Positions 12,842 to 50,936 of a stretch of DNA of 64,000 nucleotides are shown piece after piece. Every line of letters begins with the position of its first letter. Within the stretch, counting starts at the first letter, position 1. The notes under the pieces are model-generated. The model was not told the origin of the DNA. It saw only the letters and a list, made by a program, of their open reading frames with translations, and did not search any database. The position numbers and the translations under genes were made by a program. Source of the stretch: Spirochaetaceae bacterium (lineage in GTDB: Bacteria; Spirochaetota; Spirochaetia; Treponematales; Rectinemataceae); assembly GCA_025356015.1 (NCBI GenBank), contig JANXYO010000091.1, forward strand, positions 1-64,000, written 5' to 3'.

Positions 12842-14038
12842 CTAAAGCTGGGACCTCGCGCTGCCCCTCTCCAGGACTCGCGCGAGGGTTGCGGCCGGAT
12901 CCTTCGACTTTCCGAGGAGGATCATCGCCGCGATGATGTAGGGCTTGTAGCTCGCCTCGCGGTAGGTGTCGTCGCGGTAGCGCTCGAAGACGCTCGCGGC
13001 GACCTCACCTGCTGTGCAGGAGACGTCGGTGATGTCGGCGGGCAGGCAGTGCATATAGAGCGCCTTTCCACCCTTGGTGAGCTTCATCTTCGCCTCGGTG
13101 CACTCCCAGTCCTTGAAGCGGGCGTTGTTAGCGAGGCACTGCTTCTCGAGATCCTTCAAGGCCGCCTGGTCCCCATTCTTGAGCAGGGGGACGCGCTTCT
13201 GCATCACATCAAAGGGGGCCCAGCTCTTCGGGTAGACGATATCCGCGTCGGCGAAGGCCTCGTCCATCGAGTTCACGTGCTTGAATGAGCCGCCCGATTC
13301 CTTGGCCTGCTTCGCCGAGAGGGCGACGACCTCGGGGATGAGGTCGTAGCCCTCGGGGTGGGCGAGGCTTATCTCCATGCCGAAGCGGCTGGCGAGGCCG
13401 ATGATGCCCTGGGGCACCGAGAGGGGCTTGCCGTAGGAGGGGGAGTAGGCCCAGCTCATGGCGATCTTCTTGCCCTTGAGCTTGTCGAGGCCGCCGAAGT
13501 GGTGGGAGAGGTGGAGGAGGTCGGCCATCGACTGGGTGGGGTGGTCGATGTCGGATTGGAGGTTGACCACGGTGGGGCGGTCGGGGAGGACGCCCGCGGC
13601 AAGGCCCTCGTCGAGGGCCTTGCCCACCTCCCTCTGGTACTTGTCGCCCTCGCCCAGGTACATGTCGTCGCGGATGCCGATGGCCTCGGAGAGGAAGCTG
13701 ATCATGTTCGCGGTCTCGCGCACGGTCTCGCCGTGGGCGATCTGGCTCTTGCCCTCGTCGAGGTCCTGGATGTAGAGGCCGAGGAGGTCGCAGGCGCTCG
13801 CAAAGGAGAAGCGGGTCCTGGTCGAGTTGTCGCGGAAATTGGACACGGCGATGCCGGAGTCCCAGATCCTGGGCGACAGACCGGCAGAGCGCATCGCGCG
13901 AAGGGTGTCGGCGACGATGAAGGTCGCCTCGAGCTCGTCGCGGCTCTTCTCCCAGGTCAGGAGGAAGTCCTTGTGGTACATGCCAAGCTTCTTGCCTCTT
14001 AGGCCCTCGATCATCTTGCCTATCTCGGTCTTTGTCAT
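12842..14038 (-). CDS. ygeW: knotted carbamoyltransferase YgeW
   Basis: Member of the aspartate/ornithine carbamoyltransferase superfamily, YgeW subgroup. The carbamoyl-phosphate loop NSTRTRFSFASA (about residue 70) and the HCLPADITDVSC segment are plain, and the 398-residue length exceeds the ~330 of ornithine carbamoyltransferase, as is typical for YgeW. In purine-fermenting bacteria ygeW travels with ygeY, ygfK, ssnA and xdhD. It is thought to transfer a carbamoyl group from a purine-ring breakdown product to phosphate, giving carbamoyl phosphate for ATP synthesis. I chose ATG at 14038, which has GGAGGAAGAGG just ahead; an ATG 24 bases upstream has a poorer site. No carbamate kinase gene is in the window to complete that step. 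Confidence 0.9.
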   Translation of the reverse strand: MTKTEIGKMIEGLRGKKLGMYHKDFLLTWEKSRDELEATFIVADTLRAMRSAGLSPRIWDSGIAVSNFRDNSTRTRFSFASACDLLGLYIQDLDEGKSQIAHGETVRETANMISFLSEAIGIRDDMYLGEGDKYQREVGKALDEGLAAGVLPDRPTVVNLQSDIDHPTQSMADLLHLSHHFGGLDKLKGKKIAMSWAYSPSYGKPLSVPQGIIGLASRFGMEISLAHPEGYDLIPEVVALSAKQAKESGGSFKHVNSMDEAFADADIVYPKSWAPFDVMQKRVPLLKNGDQAALKDLEKQCLANNARFKDWECTEAKMKLTKGGKALYMHCLPADITDVSCTAGEVAASVFERYRDDTYREASYKPYIIAAMILLGKSKDPAATLARVLERGSARSQL

Positions 14039-14084
14039 CTTCCTCTTCCTCCGGTCATGCATATCCCCAGGCGCCAGGCGCCGG

Positions 14085-14099
14085 TCTTGTACTACAAGA
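14085..14099. promoter_or_regulatory. perfect palindrome upstream of ygeW, possible operator
   Basis: TCTTGTA-C-TACAAGA is a perfect 7-1-7 inverted repeat, 47 bases upstream of the chosen ygeW start. Its half-site (TTGTA) resembles binding sites of GntR-family regulators, and a GntR/UTRA regulator is encoded in the same gene set. The link to that regulator is inference. Confidence 0.45.
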
Positions 14100-14106
14100 T
14101 GATTTC

Positions 14107-14243
14107 ACCGTGGAAGGCGCGGAGATGAGGAGGATGAGGTGGAGAGATCCGGCACCCTGGTGGCGGCGCCCACTCCTTCCCCATGATCCCTTCCATCTCT
14201 ACTTCCGCCTCCATCGCAACAATTTCTCCGTGCCTCCGTGGCG
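14107..14243. repeat. degenerate inverted repeat between ygeW and xdhD
   Basis: The 228-base gap between ygeW and xdhD holds no gene. It has a purine-rich arm ending GGCGCGGAGA (to 14125) and a pyrimidine-rich arm TCTCCGTGCCTCCGTGGCG (14225-14243). These are imperfect inverted copies of a GAGGC(A/G)CGGAGA-like motif. The wording resembles the better preserved element at 39326-39416. Confidence 0.35.
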
Positions 14244-14266
14244 TGCCTTTCTCAATTCCCTATCTT

Positions 14267-17134
14267 CTACAGTTTTCCCATGGCCCTGAGCACGCGCTCG
14301 CTCGTGAAGGGCCACTCGCGCAGCCAGGCGCCCACGGCATCGTGGATGGCGATTGAGATGGCTGGCGCGGCTCCGTTCAGCGCGATCTCCGAGACGCTCT
14401 TGCCTCCAAAGGGCCCCACCTCGTCGGCCACCGGCACGAGTTCCACGTGGAAGTCCTTCGGGATCTCGTTGATGGTCGGGATCTTGTAGTCGAGGAAGTT
14501 GGCGTTGATGCAGCGACCATTGTCGTCGTAGAGCATCTCCTCGTAGAGGGAGTGGCCGATGGCCTTCAGGACCCCGCCGTAGATCTGGCCGATGGCGAGG
14601 GCGGGGTTGATCGGTGTGCCGCAGTCCTGGTAGGCGTGATAGCGGTCGAGCCTCACTTCGCCCGTGCGCGTGTTCACCGCCACCTGGACGAAATGCGCCC
14701 CGTAGGGGAAGGCCGCGTGCTCGGTCTTGAAGTTGCCAAAGCCCACAAGCTCGCCGTGGCCCTCGCCCTGGGTGGACATGTGGGCGAGCCTCGCGAGGCT
14801 GATCTCGCCCTTCTTGCCCTTCACCATGCCGCGATGCGCGATCTTCAGGTCGGCAGGGTCCTCGCCGAGGATGAGGGCCGCCGTGGCGATGATCTTGTCC
14901 CGCAGGTCCTCGGCCGCGCGCACTGCGGCGTTGCCCGAGAAGAAGGTGCCCGATGAGGCGTAGGCCCCCTTGTCGAAGGGTGTGATGTCGGTGTCGCCCG
15001 AGATGACGGCGACATCACCCATCTCGAGGCCCAGGATCTCGGCGGCTGCCTTGGAGGTGAGGGTGTCGAGCCCCGTGCCGAGGTCAGCCCCACCCGAGAG
15101 CATCAGGACGGTGCCGTCGCGCAGGAGCCTGAGCTCGGCGTTCGCCGAGTCGAGGCCCGGCAGGCCAGAGCCCTGCTGTATGATGACGGCGCCTCGCCCT
15201 AGCCTCCAGTCCCTGTCGCTAGACTCAGGCCGTGGTCCCCTCCAGGCGAAGGCCTTCATGCCCCGGTCCAGCATCTCCCCTAGCCCGCACTCCCCGAGGG
15301 TGACGGCCGCGCCCGGCCTGCCTTCCCCGAGGCTCTTGAGGATCTCGATGCGGGCGCCCGATCGCACGCGGTTCTTCTCGATCATGTCGATCTGGTCAAG
15401 TCCGAGCTCGGCCGCCAGCTCGGCGAGGGCGGTCTGGAGGGCGAAGGAGCCCTTGGGGGCCCCATAGCCCTGGTAGGCCCCGGCGGGCGAGAGGTTTGTG
15501 TAGTAGGACTTCACCTCGAAGCGCGCGTTGTCGCACAGAAGTAGGGGAAGGCTCTTCGAGATCGCGTTCATGGGGACGGTGAGGCAGTGCTGGCCGTAAG
15601 GCCCCGTGTCGGCGTCGAGCCGCATGAGGATGGCGGTGAGAGTGCCGTCGCGCTTCGCGCCGAGCTTCACTGTCACTTCCATGACGTGCCTCGTGCGGCT
15701 CGCTACGAACTCCTCCTCGCGGCTGTAGCGCCAGAAGACGCTCCTGCCGGTCTTCCACGCGAGATAGCCCACGACGTCCTCGAGGACGATGTCCTGCTTG
15801 GCGCCGAAGCCACCCCCGACCCTTTCCTTGATGACCCTGACCTTGTTCTCACTGATCCCGACCGCCGTGGCCACGATGCGCCGCAGATGCCAGGGGACCT
15901 GGGTCGAGGCGTGGATCACGAGACGGCCCGAGTCGATCTTGGCGTAGACGACATGGGGCTCCATGGGTGTGCACTGGACGCGGTTGCCCTTGTACTTCCT
16001 CTCGATGACGACATCGGCCTCGGCAAAGCCCTTCTCGATGTCGCCTATCCCGTCTGCGACGGAGGCCGCGAGGTTGTGGTGGGGGTCGGCGTGGAGGGGG
16101 AACTGGTAGATTATGGGGTCGTCGCGTCCGTCGCCCTCGACCGAGGTCCCCGCGGGTGCCTCGCCGACGACATAGCTCACGGCGCCAGAGTGGACGACGG
16201 GAGCCCCGGCGGCCTTGGCCTGGGCTATCGAGAGGACGGGTTTTAGGACCTCGTACTCGACCTTGATGGCCTTGAGGGCCGCTGCGGCCTCCTCGGGGCT
16301 CTCGGCGAGGACGGCGGCCACCCTGTCGCCGACATGGCGCAGCTTCTTCGAGAACATCCTCTGGTCGTAGGGCGAGGGCTCGGGGAAGCCCTGGCCGGCG
16401 GTCGTGTAGACGGCGCCGGGGCAGTTAAGGTAGGTGAGGACCTCGACGACGCCGCTCATGGCCTCGGCTTCGGCTGTGTCTATGGACTTTATCCAGGCGT
16501 GGGCGTGGGGGCTGCGGAGCATGGCGAGGTGGCAGGCGCCGGCTTCGACCCTGTCCTCCACGAAGGCTTTCTCGCCAAGGGCGAGGGCCGCGGCGTCGAC
16601 CTTCTCCCTGTCCTTGCCCACGTGCCGCAGGTCCTTCCTGAACTCTGGTCCCGCAGGATCGGCGTATCCAGGATCGGTGAGGCGTTTCGAGGCGATGCGT
16701 ACCGCCGCGTAGAACTGCTCGTAGCCCGTGCAGCGGCAGAGGGTGCCCGAGAGGGCGTCGCGGATCTCTTCCTCGCTCGGATCCTTCGACCTCTCGAGGA
16801 GGTCCTGGACGGCGAGGGCGACGGCAGGGGTGCAGTAGCCGCACTGGACGCAGGACGCGTCGACGAGGGCGCGTTGCACGATCGAGAGCTTGCGCTCCCT
16901 GGACTGTTGCTCGACAGTCGCGAGCTCGCAGCCTTCGGCCTGGAGGGCCAGGATCTGGCAGGAGTTCACGGGCCTTCCGTCGAGGATCACGGCGCAGAGC
17001 CCGCAGGAGCCTTCGCCGTCGCAGCCGTTGCGCACCGAGGTGATGCCCTTGCGGCGCAGGGCGTCGCGCAGGCTCTCATTCGCCTCGCAGTCCCACTTGA
17101 CGGAGCGGCCGTTGAGCTTGAAGGATACTTTCAC
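14267..17134 (-). CDS. xdhD: molybdenum hydroxylase XdhD (fused 2Fe-2S and Mo-binding subunits)
   Basis: Molybdopterin hydroxylase of 955 residues, the length of E. coli XdhD, historically called 'probable selenate reductase Mo subunit' and now linked to oxopurine metabolism. The first 170 residues carry two [2Fe-2S] sites (NGCDGEGSCGLC; CVQCGYC with LCRCTGY); the remainder is the xanthine-dehydrogenase-type Mo domain. At the glycine loop near residue 438 it has GGGFGAKQ, not GGKE, and near residue 555 AYQGYGAPKG rather than FRGFG. The Glu and Arg that orient xanthine are therefore replaced, arguing for a different substrate. A late Glu (GGKSVSEIA) could be the catalytic base. It starts at GTG with AGGAG upstream and overlaps ygfM by GTGA. 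FAD must come from YgfM. Confidence 0.92.
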   Translation of the reverse strand: MKVSFKLNGRSVKWDCEANESLRDALRRKGITSVRNGCDGEGSCGLCAVILDGRPVNSCQILALQAEGCELATVEQQSRERKLSIVQRALVDASCVQCGYCTPAVALAVQDLLERSKDPSEEEIRDALSGTLCRCTGYEQFYAAVRIASKRLTDPGYADPAGPEFRKDLRHVGKDREKVDAAALALGEKAFVEDRVEAGACHLAMLRSPHAHAWIKSIDTAEAEAMSGVVEVLTYLNCPGAVYTTAGQGFPEPSPYDQRMFSKKLRHVGDRVAAVLAESPEEAAAALKAIKVEYEVLKPVLSIAQAKAAGAPVVHSGAVSYVVGEAPAGTSVEGDGRDDPIIYQFPLHADPHHNLAASVADGIGDIEKGFAEADVVIERKYKGNRVQCTPMEPHVVYAKIDSGRLVIHASTQVPWHLRRIVATAVGISENKVRVIKERVGGGFGAKQDIVLEDVVGYLAWKTGRSVFWRYSREEEFVASRTRHVMEVTVKLGAKRDGTLTAILMRLDADTGPYGQHCLTVPMNAISKSLPLLLCDNARFEVKSYYTNLSPAGAYQGYGAPKGSFALQTALAELAAELGLDQIDMIEKNRVRSGARIEILKSLGEGRPGAAVTLGECGLGEMLDRGMKAFAWRGPRPESSDRDWRLGRGAVIIQQGSGLPGLDSANAELRLLRDGTVLMLSGGADLGTGLDTLTSKAAAEILGLEMGDVAVISGDTDITPFDKGAYASSGTFFSGNAAVRAAEDLRDKIIATAALILGEDPADLKIAHRGMVKGKKGEISLARLAHMSTQGEGHGELVGFGNFKTEHAAFPYGAHFVQVAVNTRTGEVRLDRYHAYQDCGTPINPALAIGQIYGGVLKAIGHSLYEEMLYDDNGRCINANFLDYKIPTINEIPKDFHVELVPVADEVGPFGGKSVSEIALNGAAPAISIAIHDAVGAWLREWPFTSERVLRAMGKL

Positions 17135-17976
17135 TGTCGGACTCCTGGGGTCGCGGCTGGACTGGAAGCTGCCAGGGCGGAGCCGGCCGCGGCGTGCATG
17201 GCGTCGGCGAGGAGGGTGGCTGCCCGCAGGCGCTTGAAGGCCGCGCTCGCCCTGAGGTCATCGATGGGGTTGAACAGTGGCGCCGAGGCGGCTTCGATCG
17301 CCTCACGCGGGGGGAGGGCCATGCCTTCGAAGAGGGCCTCGAGCTCGCCGAAGCGCCGGGCATGGGAGGCAAGGCCTCCCATGGCGATGCGCAGGGAGGA
17401 GAGCCCTGCGGATGTCACGATGCACGATACAGCCACGGTCAGGACCGAGAGGTCGCAGGAGGACCTGGCCCAGCGCAGGTAGGAGGAGCGGCGTCCGGGA
17501 TCGCTGGCTATGGCCGCCTCGAGGACGAGGCCCGATCTGTCGGCTAGCCACTCCGCCGCGCCGAGGCGGGTCTTCTTCCCTCCCTCGACGATGAGCTTCG
17601 CGTCCAGCACCAGAAGCAAGGGTATGAGGCTCGCGCAGGACTTGTTCGCCCCGAGGTTGCCTCCGATGGTTGCCCTGTTGCGCGTGTTGCGGTTGACCAT
17701 GGTAAGCGCCGCCTCGCGCAGGGAGGCGGGGACGAGGTCACAGTCCGCTATGTCCTGGAAGCTGGCCCCGGCCCCCATGAGCAGCTCTCCGTCGGCCATC
17801 CTGATCGCGCGGGGCAGGAGCCTGCCCACATCGATCAGAGCCGCGGGCCTTGGCCTCGAATCGCCGGCAAGGATCCCCGTGCCGCCCGCGAGCCAGGCTG
17901 CTCCGGGATTGGCCGCCTTCTGTTCCAGGGCCTCGGCCAGCGAGGAGGGCCTCGTGTAATCTACTATTCCGTTCAT
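17131..17976 (-). CDS. ygfM: FAD-binding subunit YgfM of the XdhD hydroxylase
   Basis: Flavin subunit of the molybdenum hydroxylase family, 281 residues. The FAD-binding loops AWLAGGTGILAGD (residues 27-39) and NTRNRATIGGNLGANKSCAS (about 95-114) are clear, followed by the CO-dehydrogenase-flavin-type C-terminal domain. It should take electrons from the [2Fe-2S] clusters of XdhD, whose gene overlaps it by GTGA. The last 30 residues are an Ala/Pro-rich tail. Its own ATG overlaps the preceding gene by ATGA, so all three genes are translationally coupled. Confidence 0.9.
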   Translation of the reverse strand: MNGIVDYTRPSSLAEALEQKAANPGAAWLAGGTGILAGDSRPRPAALIDVGRLLPRAIRMADGELLMGAGASFQDIADCDLVPASLREAALTMVNRNTRNRATIGGNLGANKSCASLIPLLLVLDAKLIVEGGKKTRLGAAEWLADRSGLVLEAAIASDPGRRSSYLRWARSSCDLSVLTVAVSCIVTSAGLSSLRIAMGGLASHARRFGELEALFEGMALPPREAIEAASAPLFNPIDDLRASAAFKRLRAATLLADAMHAAAGSALAASSPAATPGVRQ

Positions 17977-19328
17977 CGCGCTATTCCCGCCTTTTCGAGG
18001 AGCCTGCGAGAGGTCCTGTCGGCATTGCTGCGTATCTGTTCTTCCTGGCCGCCGGCGAGGCGGCCTTTGTCCACGGCGAGCTTGCCGTCGACGATGACGT
18101 AGTCGGCTCCGTGGTCGTAGCCGCAGAAAAGGAGGGCCGCCGCGGGATCGGAGAGCGAGCCCGCGTACTCGAGCTTCATCACGTCGAAGAGGGCAATGTC
18201 GGCGAGATAGCCCTCCTCGAGGCGGCCGAGCTGCTCGTAGCCGAGGATCCTCGCCCCGCCCTCGCTCGCTATGCCCATGACCTCATCGGCCGTGATACCT
18301 CCCGCCCCGTACCTGACGCGCTGCAGGAGGAGGGCCTGCCTCGCTTCGCCGAGCATGTCGGAGGAGTCGTTGGAGGCCGAGCCGTCGACAGCGAGGCCGA
18401 CGGGGATGCCGCGGTTGAGCATCTCCCTGACCCTCGCTATCCCCGAGCCCAGGCGCATGTTGGAGGAGGGGCAGTGGGCCACCCCCGTCTTTGTCCTGGC
18501 GAGGAGCTCGAGCTCCTCGTCGTTGAAGTGGATGCCGTGGGCGAACCAGACGTCCGGACCCAGGAAGCCGCAATCCTCCATGAGCTCGAGGGGGCGGCGG
18601 CAGTAGCTCTTGACGCAGTACTCGTCCTCGTCGGCCGTCTCGGCGAGGTGGGTGTGGAGGCGCACCCCGTGCTTCCTTGCGAGCATCGCAGAGCGCTTCA
18701 TGAGGTCCTCGGAGACCGAGAAGGGGGAGCAGGGGGCGAGGGCGACCTTCCTCATGGCGTCGGGAGCGCTGTCGTGGTAGCGGCCTATCGTCGCCTCGCA
18801 CTCGGCGAGGATGGTGTCCTCGTCCTGCACGACCGAGTCGGGGGGCAGTCCCCCGTCCTTCTTCGAACGCGACATCGAGCCCCGGGTGGGGGAGAAGCGC
18901 ATGCCGAGCTCGGAGGCAGCCTCGAACTGGATGCCAGGAAGGTCGGCGCCGAAGCCCTTCGGGTAGAGATAGTGGTGGTCCGTGCTCAAGGTGCAGCCGG
19001 TCTTGAGGAGCTCGGCCATCGCGAGGCGGGAGGACCAGTAGACGGCCTCTTCGTCGACGCCCTTCCAGACCTCGTAGAGGTAGACGAGCCAGTCGAAGAG
19101 CTTCGCGTTCTGAACCGCCTTGAGATTGCGGGTGAGGGTCTGGTAGAAGTGGTGGTGGGTGTTCACCAGACCGGGCATGACGACGTGGCGCGATGCGTCG
19201 ATCACCCTCGCGCCCGCGGGCGGCACGATGCCCGGGGCGATGCTCTTTATGCGGTTTCCCTCCACGAGGACGTCCACTCCGGAACGCTCGTGAGTCGTCA
19301 CGTAGTAGCAGTCCTTGAGGAGTATCAA
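17973..19328 (-). CDS. amidohydrolase, probable 8-oxoguanine deaminase
   Basis: Zinc amidohydrolase of the AtzC/TrzN/8-oxoguanine-deaminase branch, 451 residues. Metal and active-site motifs: VNTHHHFYQTLTR (residues 56-67), HTHLAET, FAHGIHF and VGLAVDGSASND. The NTHHHFYQTLTR block is the signature I associate with characterised 8-oxoguanine deaminases, which convert 8-oxoguanine to urate and ammonia. That reaction would feed urate straight into the surrounding pathway. Translation starts at TTG, supported by GGAGG 7 bases upstream and a TTGA overlap with the PLP-enzyme gene. The exact substrate is inferred; another amino-oxopurine is possible. It is distinct from SsnA, encoded further upstream in the same operon. 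Confidence 0.8.
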   Translation of the reverse strand: MILLKDCYYVTTHERSGVDVLVEGNRIKSIAPGIVPPAGARVIDASRHVVMPGLVNTHHHFYQTLTRNLKAVQNAKLFDWLVYLYEVWKGVDEEAVYWSSRLAMAELLKTGCTLSTDHHYLYPKGFGADLPGIQFEAASELGMRFSPTRGSMSRSKKDGGLPPDSVVQDEDTILAECEATIGRYHDSAPDAMRKVALAPCSPFSVSEDLMKRSAMLARKHGVRLHTHLAETADEDEYCVKSYCRRPLELMEDCGFLGPDVWFAHGIHFNDEELELLARTKTGVAHCPSSNMRLGSGIARVREMLNRGIPVGLAVDGSASNDSSDMLGEARQALLLQRVRYGAGGITADEVMGIASEGGARILGYEQLGRLEEGYLADIALFDVMKLEYAGSLSDPAAALLFCGYDHGADYVIVDGKLAVDKGRLAGGQEEQIRSNADRTSRRLLEKAGIAR

Positions 19329-20782
19329 GCAAGGACCTCCGCGTTGAACTCCTCAATCATCACGTCGAGGTCCGTGGCCTGGGCGCGCAGGCCCCCCCAG
19401 TAGTTGCGGTGGTCCTCCCACTGGGCGCGGAGCTCGGCTATGTCCTTGCCGAGCTGCTCGATCCAGGTGAAGTACTTGAGGTTGTGGACGCGGCGCTTGT
19501 CGACCTGGGAAAGCTCGAGGACGTGGTCGACGCCCTGGCCGTGGAGACGCTCGAGGTCGCGGTCGGCCTGGCGCTGGTCGTACTTCCCGCGCTCGGCGCT
19601 GAGCTCGGTGAGGCGGCTGCCATAGAGGGCCATCGAGTCTGTGAAGACCGTGAACACCACGTCGTGCTCGTCCATCTCGTAGTACTTGGCCAGCTTGATG
19701 GCGCCGACGAGGTTGCCGATGCCCGAGATGCCGAGGAGCTCGAGCTTGGCTATCGTGTCGGCGCTCACAGCGTTCTCGGCGAGGACCTTGCGTCCCTCGC
19801 TCTCGTTGAAGAGGCGCAGGAAGCGCATCGGCAGCTCGTCGTCAACGCCGACAGCGGCGTCGGTGTCGCGGAGGTTGTGGATCCAGGGGATGTGCTTGTC
19901 GCCGATGCCCTCGATGCGGTGCTCGCCAAAGCCGTTCTCGAGGATGGTGGGGCACTGGAGGGCCTCGGCGACGGCGACCTTGGCGCCGGGGAAGGTGTCG
20001 CGGAGATAGGAGCCCGAGCCCAGGGTGCCGGCAGAGCCAGAGGAGAGGATGGCGCCAGCGACCCTATCGCCTGGCTTGGCGAGGGCGCGGAAGGCCTCCT
20101 CCATCGCGGGGCCGGTGACCGAGTAGTGCCACAGGTGGTTGGGCAGCTGGTCGAACTGGTTGAAGATGACGCACTCGGGGCGCGTCCTCTCGATCTCGAT
20201 GCACTTGTCGAAGATCTCCTTGACGTTGCTCTCGCTGCCGGGGGTGGAGATGACCTCCTCGGCCATGGTGCGCAGCCACTCGAAGCGCTCCTTGGACATG
20301 CCGGCCGGGAGGATCGCGACGCTGGGGCAGGCGAGGAGGCGGGATATGTAGGCCCCGCCGCGGCAGTAGTTTCCGGTGCTCGGCCAGACGGCCTTCTTGG
20401 TCGTGGGATCGAAGCGGCCGGTGACAAGCTCGGGCAGGAGGCAGGAGAGGGCGGCTCCGACCTTGTGGGCGCCGGTGGGAAACCACTTGCCGACGAGGCC
20501 CACGATGCGCGCCTTTGTCCCGGTGATTGAGCGAGGGATCTCGAGGTAGTTGACGCCGCCAAAGGAACCGCCCCTCTCCTTGGGCTCGTTGTGCCAAGTC
20601 ACGCGGAAGAGGTTGCGGCTGTGGACGTCCCAGAGCCCTACGCCCGAGAGCTCCTTCTTGACGGATTCGGGAACCTTCGAGGGATCGCGCATCTGATCGT
20701 AGGTCGGGAGGATGATCCCCTTCTCCTTGCAGCGCTGTATGTTCTTCTTCCTCTGGTCCTTGTTCACGTGAAGGTCGATCAT
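19325..20782 (-). CDS. PLP-dependent fold-type-II enzyme, substrate unknown
   Basis: A 485-residue pyridoxal-phosphate enzyme of the cysteine-synthase/tryptophan-synthase-beta fold. The likely Schiff-base lysine is Lys107 in PTGAHKVGAA; PSTGNY follows (134-139), and a glycine-rich phosphate loop SSGSAGTLGSGS lies near residue 250. It has long N- and C-terminal extensions relative to cysteine synthase (about 320). I do not see the diaminopropionate ammonia-lyase (YgeX) pattern, yet the gene lies where a YgeX-type step is needed, coupled to the deaminase gene by TTGA. An ammonia-eliminating role on an amino acid left from purine breakdown is a guess. Start ATG with AGGGGA ahead. Confidence 0.8.
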   Translation of the reverse strand: MIDLHVNKDQRKKNIQRCKEKGIILPTYDQMRDPSKVPESVKKELSGVGLWDVHSRNLFRVTWHNEPKERGGSFGGVNYLEIPRSITGTKARIVGLVGKWFPTGAHKVGAALSCLLPELVTGRFDPTTKKAVWPSTGNYCRGGAYISRLLACPSVAILPAGMSKERFEWLRTMAEEVISTPGSESNVKEIFDKCIEIERTRPECVIFNQFDQLPNHLWHYSVTGPAMEEAFRALAKPGDRVAGAILSSGSAGTLGSGSYLRDTFPGAKVAVAEALQCPTILENGFGEHRIEGIGDKHIPWIHNLRDTDAAVGVDDELPMRFLRLFNESEGRKVLAENAVSADTIAKLELLGISGIGNLVGAIKLAKYYEMDEHDVVFTVFTDSMALYGSRLTELSAERGKYDQRQADRDLERLHGQGVDHVLELSQVDKRRVHNLKYFTWIEQLGKDIAELRAQWEDHRNYWGGLRAQATDLDVMIEEFNAEVLA

Positions 20783-20818
20783 GCTTTTCCCCTTGTGTGG
20801 TCTTTAGGATGCCGCGGC

Positions 20819-21988
20819 CTAGAGCTCGACGCCGACCGCGAGGGCGGCCGACTTGAGGTCCTTGAGGCCAGAACCGGTGACGAGGAGGACGACCGTCGAC
20901 GACGGATCGATCTCCCCCCTTGTCTTGAGGAAGCCCGCGAGACTGGCGCTCGAGGAGGGCTCGGCGAAGAGCCCGGCGCGGGATGAGAGCATTCTCTGGG
21001 CCTCGAGGATCTCGTCGTCGCTCACGACGACCGCGCGGCCTCCGTACTTCTTGAGCTTTGAGAGGGCATAGGCCCCGTTGCGCGGCACATCAACCGCTAT
21101 CGAATCGGCCAGGGTCGAGCTCGCCACAGGCGCCCCGAAGGAGCCCGAGGCGAGGGCCCGGGCCAGGGCGCTCGAGCCCTCGGCCTGGCAGGCCCAGAAC
21201 CTCGGCATGCGCGTTATGCGGCCGAGCCTTATGAGGTCCTCGAAGCCCCGCACGAGGCCGGTCAGGATCACCCCGTCGCCCGATGGCACGAAGACCTCGA
21301 GGGGACGGTCGTCCAGGGCCTCGCCCGAGCGGCGGAGATCCTTGACGATCTCGAAGGCCGCCGTCTTCTTGCCCTCGATGGTGAGGGGGTTGTAGGCGGT
21401 GTTGCGCGAGAGCACGCCCGTGGCCTTTGTGTAGGCTAGGGACTCCTCGAAGGCCTGGTCGTAGTTGCCGTCGACCTGGCGTAGCTCGGCCCCGTACTGG
21501 AGGACCTGGAGACGCTTGGCAGCAGGGGCGGCCTTGGGCAGGAAGACCGTGATCTTCAGGCCTGCCGCCGCGCCGATGCCGGCCATCGAGGAGGCGGCGT
21601 TGCCTGTCGAGGCGAGGGCTATCTCCTTTATGCCGAACTTGAGCGCGAAGGCCGCGACGAGGATGCTCGCCCTGTCCTTGTAGGAGCCCGTGGGCTGGCA
21701 GGTGTCGTCCTTGACGAAGAGCCGGGGGAAGCCTAGCTCGGAGCGCAGCCGCTCTGGCGCCCACAGGGGGGTGTCGCCCACGGGCATCCTGGGGAACCAC
21801 TCCCTCTCCACCGGCAGGGGCGTGCCCTGGGGGAAGGCCTCGGCCCCCTCGAGCTCCCAGGCGCACTCGAGGACGCCCTCGAGAGGCTGGTCCTTCTCGC
21901 GCTTGGGTGCGCAATGGTCGCAGAGATAGCGGCCCGGCTCTATGGCGTACTCGGCGCCGCAGGCCGGGCAGCGGTAGCTCCATCTCAT
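20819..21988 (-). CDS. threonine-synthase-like PLP enzyme with zinc ribbon
   Basis: A 389-residue PLP enzyme of the threonine-synthase type. An N-terminal zinc ribbon (CPAC at 7-10, CDHC at 23-26) precedes the catalytic domain, where Lys104 in QPTGSYKDRAS is the Schiff-base lysine; STGNAASSMAG and PSGDGVILTG bind cofactor. Threonine synthases make threonine from phosphohomoserine, but the gene overlaps ygeY (ATGA) and sits inside a purine-degradation operon without hom or thrB. A degradative lyase function on a related amino acid therefore seems likelier. The in-frame sequence upstream of ATG 21988 lies inside ygeY and was excluded. Confidence 0.85.
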   Translation of the reverse strand: MRWSYRCPACGAEYAIEPGRYLCDHCAPKREKDQPLEGVLECAWELEGAEAFPQGTPLPVEREWFPRMPVGDTPLWAPERLRSELGFPRLFVKDDTCQPTGSYKDRASILVAAFALKFGIKEIALASTGNAASSMAGIGAAAGLKITVFLPKAAPAAKRLQVLQYGAELRQVDGNYDQAFEESLAYTKATGVLSRNTAYNPLTIEGKKTAAFEIVKDLRRSGEALDDRPLEVFVPSGDGVILTGLVRGFEDLIRLGRITRMPRFWACQAEGSSALARALASGSFGAPVASSTLADSIAVDVPRNGAYALSKLKKYGGRAVVVSDDEILEAQRMLSSRAGLFAEPSSSASLAGFLKTRGEIDPSSTVVLLVTGSGLKDLKSAALAVGVEL

Positions 21989-23199
21989 GCCTGGGACTCC
22001 AGGGCGTAGGGCAGACCCGCATAGAAGGCGGCGCACTTCTCGAGGTCGTCGATCCGGTTGATCTCGTTGGGTGCGTGGGCCTGGGACTCGTCGCCGGGGC
22101 CAAAGCCGATCGAGGGGATCTTGTGGCGGCCGCAGACGGCGACGCCGTTCGTGGAGAAGGTCCACTTGTCGACCACGGCCTTCGAGCCGAAGAGGGCCTG
22201 GTGGGCGTCCTCGCCGGCGCGCACGAGGGGATGGTCGGCGCTTATCTTCCAGGTCGGGAAGTAAAGCTCCTGGGCGTGGATAGTGCCTTTCCAGCTCGGT
22301 TTGTCATAGTTGGGAACACTCACCTCGACGCTCTCGACGCCGGCGGCGAGGATGGCCTTTCGCACCTGCTCGACGGCGAGCTCAAGGGTCTCGCCCCAGG
22401 TGAGGCGCCTGTCCATGTAGATCATGCCCTGGTCGGGCACTGCGCAGAGGCTGGGGCCGCGGACGTCAATCTTCGAGACGGTGATCGTGCCCTTGCCAAG
22501 GAAGCCGTCGTCGTCGCTCTTTAGCTCGGTGTTGAGCTTCTCGATGGCGAGGGCGGCCTTGGCGGCCATGTAGGCCGCGCTCTTCCCGCGCTCGGGGGCG
22601 GAGCCGTGGCAGGAAACGCCCTTGAAGCGGGCCTCGATCTCCATGCGGCCCCGGTGGCCGCGGTAGATCCTGCAGCTTGTGGGCTCGGTGGACACAAAGA
22701 AGTCGGGCCTGAAGCCCTCCTTCTCGATGAGGTACTTCCAGCACAGGCCGTCGCAGTCCTCCTCCATGACGGTGAAGGCGAACCAGACCGAGTAGTCCCC
22801 GGCGTAGCCGAGGTCGGTGAGGATGCGGCCGGCGGTGATCATGCTCGCCGCCCCGCCCAGCTGGTCCGAGGCGCCGCGGCCGTGCACGAGGCCGTCCTTG
22901 ACGAGGCCCGAGAAGGGATCGAGCTTCCACTGGCTCCTGTCACCGGTCTCGACAGTGTCGATGTGGGCGTCGAACACAAGCTTCTTGGGACCATTGCCGA
23001 CGCGGGCAAGGAGGTTGCCAAGGCCGTCGACCCTGACCTCGGCGAAGCCGGCCTTCTGGCAGAGCTCCTGGAGGAGGGCTATGCGCTCCTTCTCGGTGCC
23101 GGAATAGGCAGGCACCTTGATGATCTTCGACAGCATCTCGGCGGTGCTGTCCCTGTAGGCCTTGGCCTTCTCGTTTACCTTCTGCGCGTTCAGGTGCAT
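21985..23199 (-). CDS. ygeY: YgeY-type M20 family metallohydrolase
   Basis: Member of the M20 peptidase/deacylase family, 404 residues, YgeY type ('selenium metabolism-linked hydrolase'). Dinuclear-metal ligands are in DAHIDT (His79, Asp81), GRGASDQLGG, VMEEDCDG and the late HAPNE; the dimerisation domain lies roughly at residues 185-300. M20 enzymes remove N-acyl or N-carbamoyl groups from amino acids. Here the substrate is probably a ureido or acylamino acid produced after the purine ring opens. It is coupled by ATGA to the downstream PLP gene and follows ssnA by only two bases. Confidence 0.9.
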   Translation of the reverse strand: MHLNAQKVNEKAKAYRDSTAEMLSKIIKVPAYSGTEKERIALLQELCQKAGFAEVRVDGLGNLLARVGNGPKKLVFDAHIDTVETGDRSQWKLDPFSGLVKDGLVHGRGASDQLGGAASMITAGRILTDLGYAGDYSVWFAFTVMEEDCDGLCWKYLIEKEGFRPDFFVSTEPTSCRIYRGHRGRMEIEARFKGVSCHGSAPERGKSAAYMAAKAALAIEKLNTELKSDDDGFLGKGTITVSKIDVRGPSLCAVPDQGMIYMDRRLTWGETLELAVEQVRKAILAAGVESVEVSVPNYDKPSWKGTIHAQELYFPTWKISADHPLVRAGEDAHQALFGSKAVVDKWTFSTNGVAVCGRHKIPSIGFGPGDESQAHAPNEINRIDDLEKCAAFYAGLPYALESQA

Positions 23200-23201
23200 G
23201 A

Positions 23202-24602
23202 TTACCTCGCTTCCATTCTCTTCCAGAGTCTTCTTGCCTGCTCGCGCGCGCTCTCTGATATCCGCACGAGGTCGAAGGCTGGTTTCCTGTCTTCGATCAC
23301 AAAGCTGCCGTCGACCATCACGGAGCGCACCGATCGGGCGCCGAGTCCGAAGGCGAGGTGGCCGGCGAGGTTCTCGCCGACCAGGGGTGTGGGGGGCTCG
23401 TAGTCCCAGAGCACGAGGTCGGCCGCCGCCCCCGCGACGATCTTGCCAAAGGCCGCAGGGCCTCCGGCGGCCGCCTGAGCGCCGGTGGCTGCGCCCATGT
23501 AGCGCTCCATGAGGCGGTTGCCGCGGTCAAGGCAGGCGAGGAAGTCGCCCGGCCACCAGGGTCCCAGGCTCTCGCGGTGGCGGAAACAGGCGAATTTGAA
23601 CTCCTCGAGCATGTCGGCGCTCATGCCATCGGTCCCGAGGACGACGTTCTTGAAGGTGTGCAGCAGGGCGTTGTAGCCTACCGCGTTGTTCATGTTGCTG
23701 CGCGCGTTGTGCGCGAGGAAGGAGTCGCGCTCGTTGATGAGCTCGGCCTCGGCAGGGGAAAGCCACACGCCGTGGCCGATGATGGACTTTGGACCCAGGC
23801 AGCCCGCCTTGTCGAGGCGGCTGGCGAGGTCGGCGCCGAAGCGGTAGCGCGAGTCAACGGCATCGTACTTGTCCTCGCCGGCGTGGATGTGGATGCCCCG
23901 TCCCGTGGTCTTGACAGCCTCGGCGAGGGCCTCAAGGGTCTCCTCGCCGACGGTAAAGCCGGCGTGGCCGCCGATGGAAGCGTCGGTCAGGGGGGGCCTG
24001 GCTCCCTTGCCTCCGGCCCGGGCCGCGGCCCGGGCCGCGTCGACTTCCTTGGCGAAGCGCACATTCTCGCGGACTCCCGCTTTCGCTCCCTCCATGCCGT
24101 TGCGGTCCGTCGTCTCGTAGCACAGGAGGCCGCGGATGCCGATCTCCTCGTAGGCCTTGGCGATGACGCTTAAGGAACCGTCGATGGCCTCGGGACTCGC
24201 GTGGTGGTCCACGAGGCTCGTGACGCCCGAAGCCGCCGCGTCGGCGCAGCCGGCGAGGGCGCTCGCCTCGAGGATGGGCAGGTCGATGGCCCTGTCGAGC
24301 CGCCACCAGAGGTTCTTGAGCTGCTGGGCGAAGTCCTTCGAGGGGCTGATGTCGACCATGAGGCCGCGGGCGAGGGCCGAGTACAGATGGGTGTGGGAAC
24401 ACACAAGACCTGGGCTCAGGTAGGCGCCCTTGATCCGTCTGGCATTCGGATATTTGGCAGCGAGGGCGCTGCCCGCCTCGACGATCCTGCCCTCGCGGCC
24501 GCCGGCATCGGCGTCGCCACGCTGTGCGACGGCGACATCCATGGGTTCTGACACCGAGGCAGGTGAGAAGGAGATCACGCGGACGTTTTCGAAGAGTATC
24601 AC
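23202..24602 (-). CDS. ssnA: aminohydrolase SsnA
   Basis: Zinc-dependent amidohydrolase of 466 residues, close to E. coli SsnA (about 442). Motifs: LVCSHTHLYSALARG, HIHAGEDKYDA, IGHGVWLSP and LGTDGMSAD, which hold the metal-binding His and Asp residues. SsnA genes occur with ygfK and xdhD. A deaminase or ring-opening role on an oxopurine has been proposed for the family but I cannot settle it from sequence. Translation begins at GTG 24602: GGAGG lies 7 bases upstream and GTGA overlaps the ygfK stop. Upstream in-frame sequence is within ygfK. An Asp/Gly-rich insertion near residues 28-40 is unusual. Confidence 0.88.
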   Translation of the reverse strand: MILFENVRVISFSPASVSEPMDVAVAQRGDADAGGREGRIVEAGSALAAKYPNARRIKGAYLSPGLVCSHTHLYSALARGLMVDISPSKDFAQQLKNLWWRLDRAIDLPILEASALAGCADAAASGVTSLVDHHASPEAIDGSLSVIAKAYEEIGIRGLLCYETTDRNGMEGAKAGVRENVRFAKEVDAARAAARAGGKGARPPLTDASIGGHAGFTVGEETLEALAEAVKTTGRGIHIHAGEDKYDAVDSRYRFGADLASRLDKAGCLGPKSIIGHGVWLSPAEAELINERDSFLAHNARSNMNNAVGYNALLHTFKNVVLGTDGMSADMLEEFKFACFRHRESLGPWWPGDFLACLDRGNRLMERYMGAATGAQAAAGGPAAFGKIVAGAAADLVLWDYEPPTPLVGENLAGHLAFGLGARSVRSVMVDGSFVIEDRKPAFDLVRISESAREQARRLWKRMEAR

Positions 24603-27600
24603 TTTGAGCCTCCGTTCAGGTAAGCGTGGTCCTTGTGGATGCTCCGGGCGAGGACGACCATGGGCTCCCTTGAGGCGGCCATGGCTGAGGCCTCGATCTC
24701 GGCCACGGGGCCCTCGTAGGCCGTCCGGTAGGCGAGGCGGCCCGTTCCGGCAAATGCGAAGCCCGAGTTCTTCGAGGCCTCGAGCGCCTTTCGGCCCGAG
24801 AAGAGGGTGGCCTTGTGCCGGTAGGGCTCGCCCCCCTCGAAGGGGCAGAAGACCCCGCAGTTCCCGCACTCGTTGCACAGGGCGTCCACGTGGAGGATCT
24901 GGAAGGCATCGCGCCACGGCTCGGCGATGCTGGTGTCGCTCCATGGCGCGGCGACGCCGGGGATCGCCATGTTCGCCCTGTTCGGGCAGACCTCGACGCA
25001 GCGCAGGCAGGCCGAGTCGCAGGAGAGGCAGCGGTCCGCCTCGCGTTGGGCGAAACCGGCAGCCACGGGGGCCAGTGGGCCCTGGAGGCGGCCGCGGGCG
25101 GCGAGCCTGGCCGCCTCGGGGGCGATCGCGCGGTAGCCCTGCTTCGGGGGTTCGATGCCCGCCTCGCGCATGATCGCGTAGGCTGCCCTCCTGCCGTCGG
25201 CTGCCGCCGAGATGATCGAGGAGGGGCCGCGGGCGGCGTCTCCGCCCAGGTAGAGGCCCTTGCGAGCCGTGGCCTGGCTCTCCTTGTCGTAGACGGGTTT
25301 GCCGTCCTTGCCATAGGTGGCGCCGAGCTTCTCGAGGAGGGAGCGGTCGGCGCTCTCCCCGATGGCGGCCACAAGAAGGTCGCAGTGGACGCTCTCGGTC
25401 CTGTCGGAAGGCCGTGGCGAGCGGCGGCCCGAGGCGTCCTTCTCGCCGAGCTCCATGAGCCTCAGGACGAGGCTGCTGGGCGCGGCGCCCGAGGCCGGGA
25501 TGGCGCGCTCGGGCAGGCTCAAGGCCATGAGCTTTCCGCCCTCGGCGAGGGCGTTGCCGAGCTCTTCCTTGTCGGCTGGCATCTCCTCGAGGCTGCGGCG
25601 GTAGGAAAGACGCACCTCATTGATCCCGGGGATGCGGGTGGCGACGCGGACAGCGTCCATGGCGGTGTTGCCTCCGCCGGCGACGACGACATGCTTGATG
25701 CCGGCGAAGTCCCCAGCCCCGCCACCCGTGGCGACGCCGCGGGCGGACTCGAGGAAGGCGAGGGCGTCGACGACGCGCACACCCGAGCCTTCGATGGCGA
25801 GGGGCTTGGGCACAGGTGCGCCCGAGCAGGCGAAGAAGGAGGTGAAGCCCTCGGCCTCGAGCTTGCCAAGGGAGTCGACATCGGCGCCGAAGCGGAACTC
25901 GACCCCGAGGGACTCGATGCGCTCGATGTCCTTCTTGAGGGCCGAGGCCTCGATGCGGAAGGCAGGCAGGGTGTTGGCGGGTACGCCGCCGGCGCCAGAG
26001 GCCCTGTCGAAGACCGTGACGGGGACACCAGCGAGGGCGAGGTGGTGGGCGCAGGCCAGGCCCGCGGGGCCAGCCCCGATGACGGCCACCCTGCCCTTGA
26101 AGGCCGCGGGTTTGGCCCTGACGACGGGCAATGAGGCGGCCTTCGCGCAGCCAAGCTTTGAGGCCCTGATCTCGACCGAGCCCTCGTAATCGTTGCGGTT
26201 GCAGGCCTCCTGGCAGACGTGGTCGCACAAAGTACCAGTTATGAAGGGCAGGGGATTGTCGGCGAGGATGGTCTCGATGGCGGCGCGGGAGTCACCGGCC
26301 GCGGCGAGGCGGATGTAGGCCGGGGCCTTCTGCTTGACGGGGCAGGCCTCGATGCAGGGGGCCGCGAAGCAGTCGAAGAGGGGGAGCTTGCGCTCGATCC
26401 TGCCCCTGCCCTGTTTCCAGGCCTTGCGGTACTCGGGGCGCTCGAGGGCTGCCGCGGCGAGGGCAGCGAGCTTTTTCGCGTCGGGCCTCTCCGGCGATCC
26501 GGGAAGGGCGCGGACCGCCTCCTCGGCCATCTGGCCGAAGCGGAGATAGCCGCCCGGCTTGAGGACGTCGGTCGCGACGGTGACCGGCCCCATGCCCGCG
26601 GCGATGAGCTCTGCGACGTTGAGGGCCGAGGCGCCCCCGCAGTAGGAGAAGCGCTGGTCGAACTCCGGCAGTGCGGCCGCCAGGTCCGCGGCGAGCCTTG
26701 TGGTGACCGCGAAGAGGGCGCGGCCCGACATGTAGCGCTCGGCCCCTGGGAGGAAGCCACCCGTGTTCTCGTTCGCGAGGGTGTTCGAGAGCTTGATCCC
26801 GAAGCGGAGGCCTGAGTCCTCGGCTTTTTTCGATAGGGATCTGATGAGTCCGAGGGCATCCTTGAACTGGAGGTCGTGCTCGAAGGTATCGCGTTTCAGG
26901 CCGATGTCCTTCCAGCCCGTGTGATCGAGGATGCCGCGCACCGTGTAGTAGCCGAGGAGGGTGGGGTTGAGCTTTACGAAGGTGTCGAAGCCCTTTTCCT
27001 CGATGAGGTAGGCTCCGATGCCCTCGATCTCGGCGGGAGGGCAGCCGTGCATCGTGGAGATCGTGACCGAATGCACCGGCTTCGCGGGGAAGGCCGCGAC
27101 CAGGGCCCTCGCCTTCGCGAGGGCATCGCTTCCGAAGGCCGCTAGGAAGCCGGGGGATTCTACGAAGGCAGAGACCTCGTGCATGTCATTGGCCCACTGG
27201 GGCAGGCGGGAAGGCGAGCGCATGGCCTCGATGTAGGCGTTGACCCTCGCGCCCTTGATTCCCGCGAGGGTGTAACCCACCGAGATGTTGAAGAGGAAGG
27301 ACTTCGGTTTCGAGGAGAAGACAGCCGCGAGGAGGTTCACGGCGATCCAGGCGTTGAGGTACTCGTCTCTTGCCTGGTCGAGGGAGAGCTCGGTGGACCA
27401 CTCGGTGTTGTGCCCCTCGTCGAAGGCCTCGATGCAGGGCTTTTCGATGTCGAGGCTGTCGTTCTCCTGGACGGTCTTGAGCTCGAAGGTCCTGGCGCCC
27501 GCGAGATAGGCTGCCACGATATTGGGCGCTATCTGGCTGTGGGGGCCGGCTGCCGGGCCCACGGGAAGGCTCGCCACGCCCGACATCACCTTCAGGTCGG

Positions 27601-27724
27601 GACTGCGGGCCTCGAGGGCGAAGGTCTCGCGGAATCCCGCCTCGGGAATCTCGAAGATCGTGCGCTTGGCTGCGTATTCGCCTGCCATGCGCCCCAGCAG
27701 CTGCTTAAGCGCGGTCGTGTCCAT
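24599..27724 (-). CDS. ygfK: YgfK, flavin/Fe-S oxidoreductase ('putative selenate reductase' subunit)
   Basis: A protein of about 1041 residues with the YgfK layout. First comes a dihydroorotate-dehydrogenase-like barrel (SLPVGPAAGPHSQIA, STMHGCPPAEIEGIG, VKLNPTLLGYYTVRGILD). Next is a GltD-type Fe-S segment (CIEACPVKQ, CDHVCQEACNR), then a two-dinucleotide flavoprotein domain (VAVIGAGPAGLACAHHLA, VVVAGGGNTAMDAVR, IGESAD). Last are two ferredoxin-like motifs (CLSCDSACLRCVEVCP and CNECGNCGVFCPF). It probably passes electrons between NAD(P)H or ferredoxin and XdhD-YgfM. I chose ATG 27724, with AGGTGA 8 bases ahead; ATG 27748, overlapping hyuA, is an alternative. The name 'selenate reductase' is historical. 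Confidence 0.92.
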   Translation of the reverse strand: MDTTALKQLLGRMAGEYAAKRTIFEIPEAGFRETFALEARSPDLKVMSGVASLPVGPAAGPHSQIAPNIVAAYLAGARTFELKTVQENDSLDIEKPCIEAFDEGHNTEWSTELSLDQARDEYLNAWIAVNLLAAVFSSKPKSFLFNISVGYTLAGIKGARVNAYIEAMRSPSRLPQWANDMHEVSAFVESPGFLAAFGSDALAKARALVAAFPAKPVHSVTISTMHGCPPAEIEGIGAYLIEEKGFDTFVKLNPTLLGYYTVRGILDHTGWKDIGLKRDTFEHDLQFKDALGLIRSLSKKAEDSGLRFGIKLSNTLANENTGGFLPGAERYMSGRALFAVTTRLAADLAAALPEFDQRFSYCGGASALNVAELIAAGMGPVTVATDVLKPGGYLRFGQMAEEAVRALPGSPERPDAKKLAALAAAALERPEYRKAWKQGRGRIERKLPLFDCFAAPCIEACPVKQKAPAYIRLAAAGDSRAAIETILADNPLPFITGTLCDHVCQEACNRNDYEGSVEIRASKLGCAKAASLPVVRAKPAAFKGRVAVIGAGPAGLACAHHLALAGVPVTVFDRASGAGGVPANTLPAFRIEASALKKDIERIESLGVEFRFGADVDSLGKLEAEGFTSFFACSGAPVPKPLAIEGSGVRVVDALAFLESARGVATGGGAGDFAGIKHVVVAGGGNTAMDAVRVATRIPGINEVRLSYRRSLEEMPADKEELGNALAEGGKLMALSLPERAIPASGAAPSSLVLRLMELGEKDASGRRSPRPSDRTESVHCDLLVAAIGESADRSLLEKLGATYGKDGKPVYDKESQATARKGLYLGGDAARGPSSIISAAADGRRAAYAIMREAGIEPPKQGYRAIAPEAARLAARGRLQGPLAPVAAGFAQREADRCLSCDSACLRCVEVCPNRANMAIPGVAAPWSDTSIAEPWRDAFQILHVDALCNECGNCGVFCPFEGGEPYRHKATLFSGRKALEASKNSGFAFAGTGRLAYRTAYEGPVAEIEASAMAASREPMVVLARSIHKDHAYLNGGSK

Positions 27725-27732
27725 TACCTTGC

Positions 27733-35564: not shown

Positions 35565-35600
35565 GTGTTCCCCCTTAGAAAGGCGTGCGCCGCCAGAACT

Positions 35601-35657
35601 AGTTTCGCGCACGCGGGCGAAACTGCAAGGACCCTAGCCCGGTCCCGCGCGAAACTG
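35601..35657. promoter_or_regulatory. repeated GTTTCGC half-sites upstream of adenine deaminase
   Basis: AGTTTCGC (35601-35608) and GCGAAACT (35617-35624) form a perfect 8-base inverted repeat around 8 bases. A third copy, GCGAAACTG, ends at 35657, 32 bases from the second. All lie between the importer gene and the adenine deaminase start. Candidate operator; the binding protein is unknown. Confidence 0.45.
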
Positions 35658-37711: not shown

Positions 37712-37726
37712 CGCGGGACGCTCCTT

Positions 37727-39265: not shown

Positions 39266-39325
39266 GCTGGTGGACTGCCTCTACTGTGGATTTGGAAAGC
39301 TAAAGAGCCAATTCGGTGGAAGAAA

Positions 39326-39416
39326 CCGCAGAGACGCGGAGCCGAGAGAGGAAATGGGAGATCATCCCCATTCGAAGACCGCTCTGCGGATGCTCTGCGC
39401 CTCAGCGCCTCTGCGG
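39326..39416. repeat. hairpin-forming GCAGAG/CTCTGC intergenic repeat
   Basis: Left arm 39326-39348 (starts CCGCAGAGACGCGGAG) and right arm 39393-39416 (ends GCGCCTCTGCGG) are near-perfect inverted copies around about 44 bases. The element lies within the transcript between the importer receptor and its ATPase, starting 6 bases past the receptor stop. Elements with a CGCAGAG..CTCTGCG wording are scattered in many environmental genomes. It may stabilise the receptor mRNA or attenuate downstream expression. Confidence 0.6.
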
Positions 39417-39421
39417 CATGA

Positions 39422-40498: not shown

Positions 40499-40599
40499 CG
40501 GCGACTCCTTCTCGTGGTTGATGACATCGGGGAAGGACCCATTCGGGGCCCCTGCCCGCATGCCGGACCGATGGGAGCCTAGAGGGCCGAACCCGCTGG

Positions 40600-49915: not shown

Positions 49916-49963
49916 GTTTGTGTCACTCCCTTCTGTTCCTGCCCTGTGCGCGGGCCATTGTAG

Positions 49964-50932: not shown

Positions 50933-50936
50933 CGCC

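Follow-up and report, generated by a model that had tools for sequence, protein, structure and literature searches.

A gene cluster for the anaerobic reductive breakdown of purines and uric acid lies within a 64,000-nucleotide stretch of a Spirochaetaceae bacterium genome (assembly GCA_025356015.1, contig JANXYO010000091.1, positions 1 to 64,000 of the forward strand; hereafter the window), and beside its ygeY gene stand two adjacent genes for pyridoxal 5'-phosphate (PLP)-dependent enzymes, here called PLP1 and PLP2. In E. coli and C. difficile, the pathway runs from urate through yanthine to 2,3-diaminopropionate, and YgeX cleaves this last compound into pyruvate and ammonia (PMC12507026, PMC12990295). 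On the strength of genomic context we lean towards the view that PLP2 and PLP1 together provide this pathway with an alternative terminal module, which acts on diaminopropionate or on its mono-ureido precursor. The recently described uric acid pathway probably has a second, unstudied ending.

PLP1 and PLP2 are intact and lie on the same (-) strand in a tight, operon-like run with the genes for YgeW, XdhD, YgeY, SsnA and YgfK. PLP1 and the 8-oxoguanine deaminase gene share 4 bases, as do PLP2 and ygeY, and the gap between PLP2 and PLP1 measures 36 bases. The whole reductive uric acid set (XdhD, YgfK, SsnA, YgeY and YgeW) is clustered within 12842-27748, and judged by its sequence the run around PLP1 and PLP2 is a reductive uric acid pathway cluster. 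As the steps of these enzymes end at diaminopropionate in E. coli, the operon itself suggests a terminal role for the pair. The first-pass annotation had remarked on the adjacent 485-residue fold-type-II enzyme and zinc-ribbon, threonine-synthase-like enzyme, and on the lack of a YgeX pattern. Both proteins do exceed the gathering score of the generic PALP family (PF00291, 35 bits), and a genome-wide search with TIGR01747 (cut-off 274 bits) found no YgeX, the top match being PLP2 at 19.8 bits; PLP1 gives no match to this model. Genome completeness is 99.37%, and contamination 3.62%. Its six PALP proteins are PLP1, PLP2, a ThrC (C106, 219 bits versus a cut-off of 167), a CysK (C36, 449 bits versus 351), a D-cysteine desulfhydrase/sulfo-lyase-like protein (C55) and a protein that reads as TrpB (C65). 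No hidden or diverged YgeX came to light elsewhere in the genome: TIGR01747 detects none and all six PALP proteins are accounted for; nor was a further candidate lyase found among these six or in the uricolytic cluster of the window.

The pair is widespread, as a comparison with other genomes bears out. PLP1 relatives with at least 58% identity occur in Spirochaetota, Betaproteobacteria, Chloroflexota, Halanaerobiales, Synergistota, Atribacterota, Bipolaricaulota, Acidobacteriota, Marinimicrobia, Ignavibacteria and others, and the pair recurs in at least 10 phyla. A PLP2 subfamily member (at least 454 bits) is present in 47 of 50 genomes bearing such a PLP1, and YgeX in 2 of the 50. PLP2 is mostly located in purine clusters. 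Where Anaerolineae carry PLP1 elsewhere, PLP2 lies beside genes for xanthine dehydrogenase (XDH), carbamoyltransferase or carbamate kinase in 8 of 11 regions examined, and all 20 PLP2 copies of the Anaerolineae set keep the TxADSI motif described below. E. coli-like YgeY and YgeW genes are divergent from PLP2-PLP1 in Accumulibacter. Among 47 Spirochaetota with YgfK, 20 hold YgeX only, 12 PLP1 only, 12 both and 3 neither (Fisher p=0.011); all 20 YgeX-only genomes belong to one family (f23), which we read as Brachyspira-like. For Bacillota, by which we mean the phylum group of Halanaerobium, 80 genomes with SsnA were counted after exclusion of the five top-scoring SsnA genomes. YgeX is present in 25, a PLP1-family member in 63 (28 of these close, the others falling into two tiers of greater distance), both in 13 and neither in 5. 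Over all tiers, a PLP1-family member is found in 50 of the 55 YgeX-less genomes versus 13 of the 25 with YgeX (p=2e-4). The missing YgeX, the near-constant company of PLP2 in PLP1 genomes, the Spirochaetota and Bacillota contrasts and the purine context in Anaerolineae and Accumulibacter all argue for the terminal module.

Several observations weigh against this interpretation. The co-occurrence counts and locus contrasts ignore kinship between genomes. With close PLP1 orthologues only, exclusion of YgeX is not seen in Bacillota (p=0.31). Many Anaerolineales have their PLP1 gene away from purine clusters. Four Spirochaetota families (f12, f14, f22 and f29) hold the pair and YgeX in one genome; in f12 and f14, the pair and the YgfK-SsnA-YgeY run are divergently oriented and YgeX sits on a separate contig. 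In five Bacillota genomes (G327, G465, G689, G536 and G577), PLP2, PLP1 and YgeX even share one uricolytic cluster (loci L209, L210, L211, L221 and L222); RidA adjoins YgeX in two of these five clusters. Finally, the Asp of the YgeX 'TTDGNHG' loop, which is Asp120 of E. coli and the base for the D isomer, corresponds to Thr in both PLP2 (T128) and PLP1 (T136). The idea that the pair stands in YgeX's place therefore holds to the extent that it occupies the uricolytic clusters of YgeX-less lineages, but a strict swap is contradicted by the 12 of 47 Spirochaetota with both and by the five joint clusters. Simple replacement of YgeX in every lineage is ruled out by this coexistence, which also suggests that the pair may do something YgeX does not. 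YgeX-less clusters nearly always hold the pair, yet it is not merely a renamed YgeX.

The five joint Bacillota clusters and the Anaerolineales copies of PLP1, together with a Betaproteobacterial TRAP-transporter context without XDH, YgfK and SsnA, would also fit a pair that serves another step of purine or amino acid catabolism, with an unrelated enzyme handling diaminopropionate when YgeX is absent. We consider this possible but rather unlikely: YgeX-less Bacillota and Spirochaetota nearly always hold the pair or PLP1, and neither the cluster in the window nor the genome's six PALP proteins offered another candidate lyase.

PLP2 has a zinc ribbon whose C7, C10 and C23 are invariant among 31 homologues, and its AlphaFold2 model (predicted local distance difference test, pLDDT, 93.7) adopts the ThrC fold, with 32-36% identity to ThrC. 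It scores below the threonine synthase models (TIGR00260 thrC, 147.6 versus a cut-off of 167.1; NF006050, 185.3 versus 303), although some distant PLP2 homologues do exceed the thrC cut-off. Four solved bacterial ThrCs share an 'NPxRxEGQKT' motif, the Arg of which is the phosphate-binding Arg160 of T. thermophilus ThrC; in PLP2 this Arg is replaced by Thr (T203), and R195 and K207 are found there instead. R195, K207, D238 and TxADSI (D295, S296) form a signature present in 59 of 59 subfamily members and in 0 of 7 ThrC-like proteins. A tree of the subfamily with ThrC-like proteins, cleaner than one of all PALP proteins, places the subfamily on one side of a branch with support of 97/98.9. The genome's own ThrC, the missing Arg and the score under cut-off rule out PLP2 as threonine synthase. 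Neither of the two outcomes that the first-pass annotation had named as speaking against its proposal is borne out, the genome having no ygeX elsewhere and PLP2 being no true threonine synthase.

PLP1 belongs to no specific curated family beyond the generic PALP, its best NCBIfam match being cysK at 74 bits (cut-off 350.95). It carries a 'PTGAHK' lysine motif (K107) and a 'PSTGNYCRGGAY' loop. The AlphaFold2 model (pLDDT 88.9) resembles CysK, cystathionine beta-synthase (CBS) and beta-cyanoalanine synthase in Foldseek comparisons (most CysK matches at a TM-score, TMt, of 0.70-0.82 over ~320-340 columns, with 22-25% identity), and the predicted core fold is of the O-acetylserine sulfhydrylase/CBS type with additional N- and C-terminal regions. 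The PLP1 family is unusually conserved: mean column identity of 71% across 38 homologues, each at least 58% identical to the window copy, indicates a functional gene. PLP1 as CysK is ruled out by the genome's own CysK, by the cysK score far under cut-off and by the different size. In three of the five Bacillota genomes with neither YgeX nor PLP1, the gene next to SsnA encodes a CysK-type enzyme (L231:2016-3107, L232:2591-3649 and L233:11799; over the cysK cut-off in L232), a possible third pathway ending. That PLP1 keeps a CysK-type core, and that such an enzyme is found beside SsnA in these three genomes, is also in line with a terminal role of the pair.

The substrate of the proposed terminal module would be the C3 amino acid that remains once the ring has been opened and the ureido group taken off, namely 2,3-diaminopropionate (YgeX's substrate in E. 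coli), probably in its D form. Within this module, PLP1 would remove the beta-amino group via an enzyme-bound aminoacrylate, as cysteine synthase and CBS treat other 3-substituted alanines, and PLP2 would act at the alpha-carbon, either epimerizing D to L or using the enantiomer closed to PLP1. The product would be pyruvate if elimination takes place, or L-serine if water replaces the amine. We offer this division of labour, with PLP2 at the alpha-carbon and cysteine-synthase-type chemistry in PLP1, as a speculative scheme that is doubtful in its details.

Neighbouring genes give some clues to the chemistry. RidA clears 2-aminoacrylate. The toxicity of this compound is the topic of earlier work (PMC9127364). 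RidA is found in 4 of 18 YgeX loci versus 0 of 127 loci with the pair only (p=2e-4), and within Bacillota alone in 4 of 10 versus 0 of 27 (p=0.003). In three Rhodocyclaceae-type loci (L008, L010, L012), SdaA comes immediately after PLP1. GlyA separates PLP2 from PLP1 in L037 and stands next to the pair in L219, GlyA and/or SdaA occur at L020, L235, L244 and L247 as well, and an SDH_alpha protein is encoded at L028 and L213. Six GlyA loci in 2.3 Mb compare with 0.7-1.4 expected by chance (estimated from one or two copies per genome; P ~1e-4 to 3e-3). These neighbours and the RidA pattern hint at serine rather than free 2-aminoacrylate.

As a special case of the terminal module, PLP2 would turn D-diaminopropionate to the L form and PLP1 would swap the beta-amino group for water, yielding L-serine for SdaA or GlyA. 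The beta-replacement type of core predicted for PLP1 and the hydrolase beside the pair in Betaproteobacteria, which reads as D-carbamoylase-like, are compatible with this route, as are the serine genes and the absence of RidA noted above. However, serine genes in 11 of 127 pair loci versus 0 of 18 YgeX loci do not make a significant difference (p=0.36), the window has none close to the pair, and here too the statistics ignore kinship. To our knowledge, there is no precedent for water replacing an amine of diaminopropionate. The serine route is therefore an improbable version, if one worth stating. It would make the second ending a widespread one, in which two uncharacterized PLP families act in series on D-2,3-diaminopropionate to give L-serine and bypass free 2-aminoacrylate and RidA, and we judge it unlikely in this general form too.

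In another special case of the terminal module, each protein would be a diaminopropionate ammonia-lyase in its own right, with PLP1 and PLP2 taking different enantiomers and jointly doing the work of the single YgeX. Hydantoins can racemize. E. coli YgeX uses L- and D-diaminopropionate equally well (PMC12507026), and the ureido intermediates of the pathway are proposed to be R (PMC12990295). A stereospecific route would need one lyase, yet the pair is kept in 47 of 50 genomes, and RidA is never near the pair alone (0 of 127 loci); an enantiomer split is accordingly still less plausible. That an ordinary ThrC (PLP2) and an ordinary CysK (PLP1) lie here by chance is suggested by likeness in fold and family and by the distant PLP2 homologues above the thrC cut-off, but is effectively excluded by the separate ThrC and CysK of the genome, by the sub-threshold scores of both proteins (for PLP1, 74 versus 351), and by T203 and the separate branch of PLP2.

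Features of the cluster in the window, with profile scores in bits
Feature	Coordinates	Strand	Profile match
YgeW, knotted carbamoyltransferase	12842-14062	-	TIGR03316 652 (cut-off 500)
XdhD, urate-to-yanthine reductase Mo/Fe-S subunit	14267-17134	-	TIGR03313 1210.8 (cut-off 1101.9)
YgfM-like FAD subunit	17131-17976	-	TIGR03312 115.9 (under cut-off 241.5)
8-oxoguanine deaminase-type amidohydrolase (GuaD)	17973-19328	-	NF006055 604.9 (cut-off 532)
PLP1, fold-type-II PLP enzyme, 485 aa, ATG start	19325-20782	-	PF00291 58.8
PLP2, zinc-ribbon threonine-synthase-like PLP enzyme, 389 aa, ATG start	20819-21988	-	PF00291 238.6
YgeY, ureido-group hydrolase of the reductive uric acid pathway	21985-23199	-	TIGR03526 486.5 (cut-off 321.5)
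SsnA, dihydro-yanthine-opening aminohydrolase	23202-24602	-	TIGR03314 470.3 (cut-off 455.5); NF005540 473.8 (cut-off 444)
YgfK, yanthine reductase	24599-27748	-	TIGR03315 982.2 (cut-off 835.3)
HyuA/allantoinase-like hydantoinase	27733-29148	-	TIGR03178 340.4 (slightly under cut-off 357.85); PF01979
Second XDH, large subunit	29124-31454	-	TIGR02965 740.5 (under cut-off)
Second XDH, small subunit	31451-32962	-	TIGR02963 305.4 (under cut-off)
Adenine deaminase	33846-35612	-	TIGR01178 585.8 (cut-off 472.5)

YgeW, XdhD, GuaD, YgeY, SsnA, YgfK and adenine deaminase pass their curated cut-offs; the YgfM-like subunit, the HyuA-like enzyme and the second XDH fall short of theirs. A GntR regulator also belongs to the cluster, listed between the second XDH and adenine deaminase, and the GuaD-type gene is next to PLP1 at many of the loci compared. 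A BMP-type ATP-binding cassette (ABC) transporter (35660-40561, - strand) is also part of the cluster and matches the NCBIfam 'putative B6 ABC transporter' models under cut-off; next to genes of purine metabolism, import of nucleosides or nucleobases is its more likely role. Further along (48971-51893, - strand), three successive paralogous genes (products of 314-322 aa) read as succinylglutamate desuccinylase/aspartoacylase-type zinc enzymes and adjoin an aspartate kinase-like gene (51954-53057).

Other loci vary this layout. A Betaproteobacterial module (L008, L010 and L012, also L007) comprises a TRAP transporter, a hydantoinase/carbamoylase amidase, a carbon-nitrogen hydrolase (nitrilase family, CN_hydrolase), PLP2 and PLP1, with SdaA in three of the four. 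The hydrolase reads as D-carbamoylase-like, and the module looks suited to importing and degrading a ureido or hydantoin compound; the gene set would fit a compound that has its 2-ureido group in the D configuration and ends as the same C3 amino acid. One or two ornithine carbamoyltransferase (OTC)-like enzymes distinct from YgeW accompany a carbamate kinase in purine clusters from Atribacterota, Bipolaricaulota, Chloroflexota and other groups (L035, L022, L058, L195 and more). The OTC-like enzymes may phosphorolyse both ureido groups for ATP, and we infer from the recurrence of the two activities that ATP is probably gained from the carbamoyl phosphate that these groups furnish. At 20 loci, a protein of ~200 residues without a Pfam match (cluster 5) is encoded soon after PLP1 (L041, L075, L076, L063, L031, L018 and more Anaerolineae), and an OsmC-family gene occurs at Halanaerobiales PLP1 loci (L028:9324-9773, L044, L051, L053). 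Near PLP1 in Halanaerobiales an SDH_alpha protein is encoded as well. We did not adopt a reading of the pair in terms of sulfide or cysteine chemistry, because among the loci compared OsmC was limited to Halanaerobiales and SDH_alpha to two loci.

It was not until 2025 that the anaerobic uric acid pathway was elucidated, and it has relevance to gout and to nitrogen balance in the gut. If PLP2 and PLP1 do end it, many uricolytic anaerobes (Spirochaetota, Chloroflexota, Synergistota, Halanaerobiales, Atribacterota and others) have been overlooked or misannotated: relatives of PLP2 are taken for threonine synthase, and under PF00291 alone both proteins count as YgeX. Two PLP families of no known function would gain a testable substrate, and the predicted product and energy yield of the pathway could change.

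The pathway itself is already known, and orthologues of XdhD, YgfK, SsnA, YgeY and YgeW are found here as in E. coli and C. difficile (PMC12507026); the difference is that the window has the PLP2-PLP1 pair and lacks YgeX. No description of the pair, or of such an ending, turned up in the literature searched. A published neighbourhood survey scored 'YgeX' by generic PF00291 within 15 genes (PMC12507026), and its counts may include PLP1 and PLP2, which both match this family. YgeX/DpaL (E. coli, PDB 4d9g, TIGR01747) resembles PLP1 and PLP2 in being a fold-type-II PLP enzyme encoded beside YgeY, but ends the pathway as a single enzyme where we find two. Profile comparison relates YgeX to PLP2 with a probability of 98% and to PLP1 with 21%; in the all-PALP tree YgeX forms one clade (100/100) without PLP1 or the close PLP2 group, long-branch warnings making the placement between families unsure. 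PLP2 has its fold and catalytic core in common with bacterial-type ThrC (PDB 2zsj, 6cgq, 2d1f and 1uim), at the identity given above, but is set apart by the zinc ribbon, the TxADSI and GDG signatures, R195, the lost 'NPxRxEGQKT' Arg and a catabolic context in a genome with a separate ThrC. PLP1 shares the core fold and the substrate-loop and phosphate-loop positions with cysteine synthase, CBS and beta-cyanoalanine synthase, and differs from them in its length of 485 residues, its extra termini, a TrpB-like 'TGAHK' motif, an identity of only 22-25% and scores far under all curated cut-offs.

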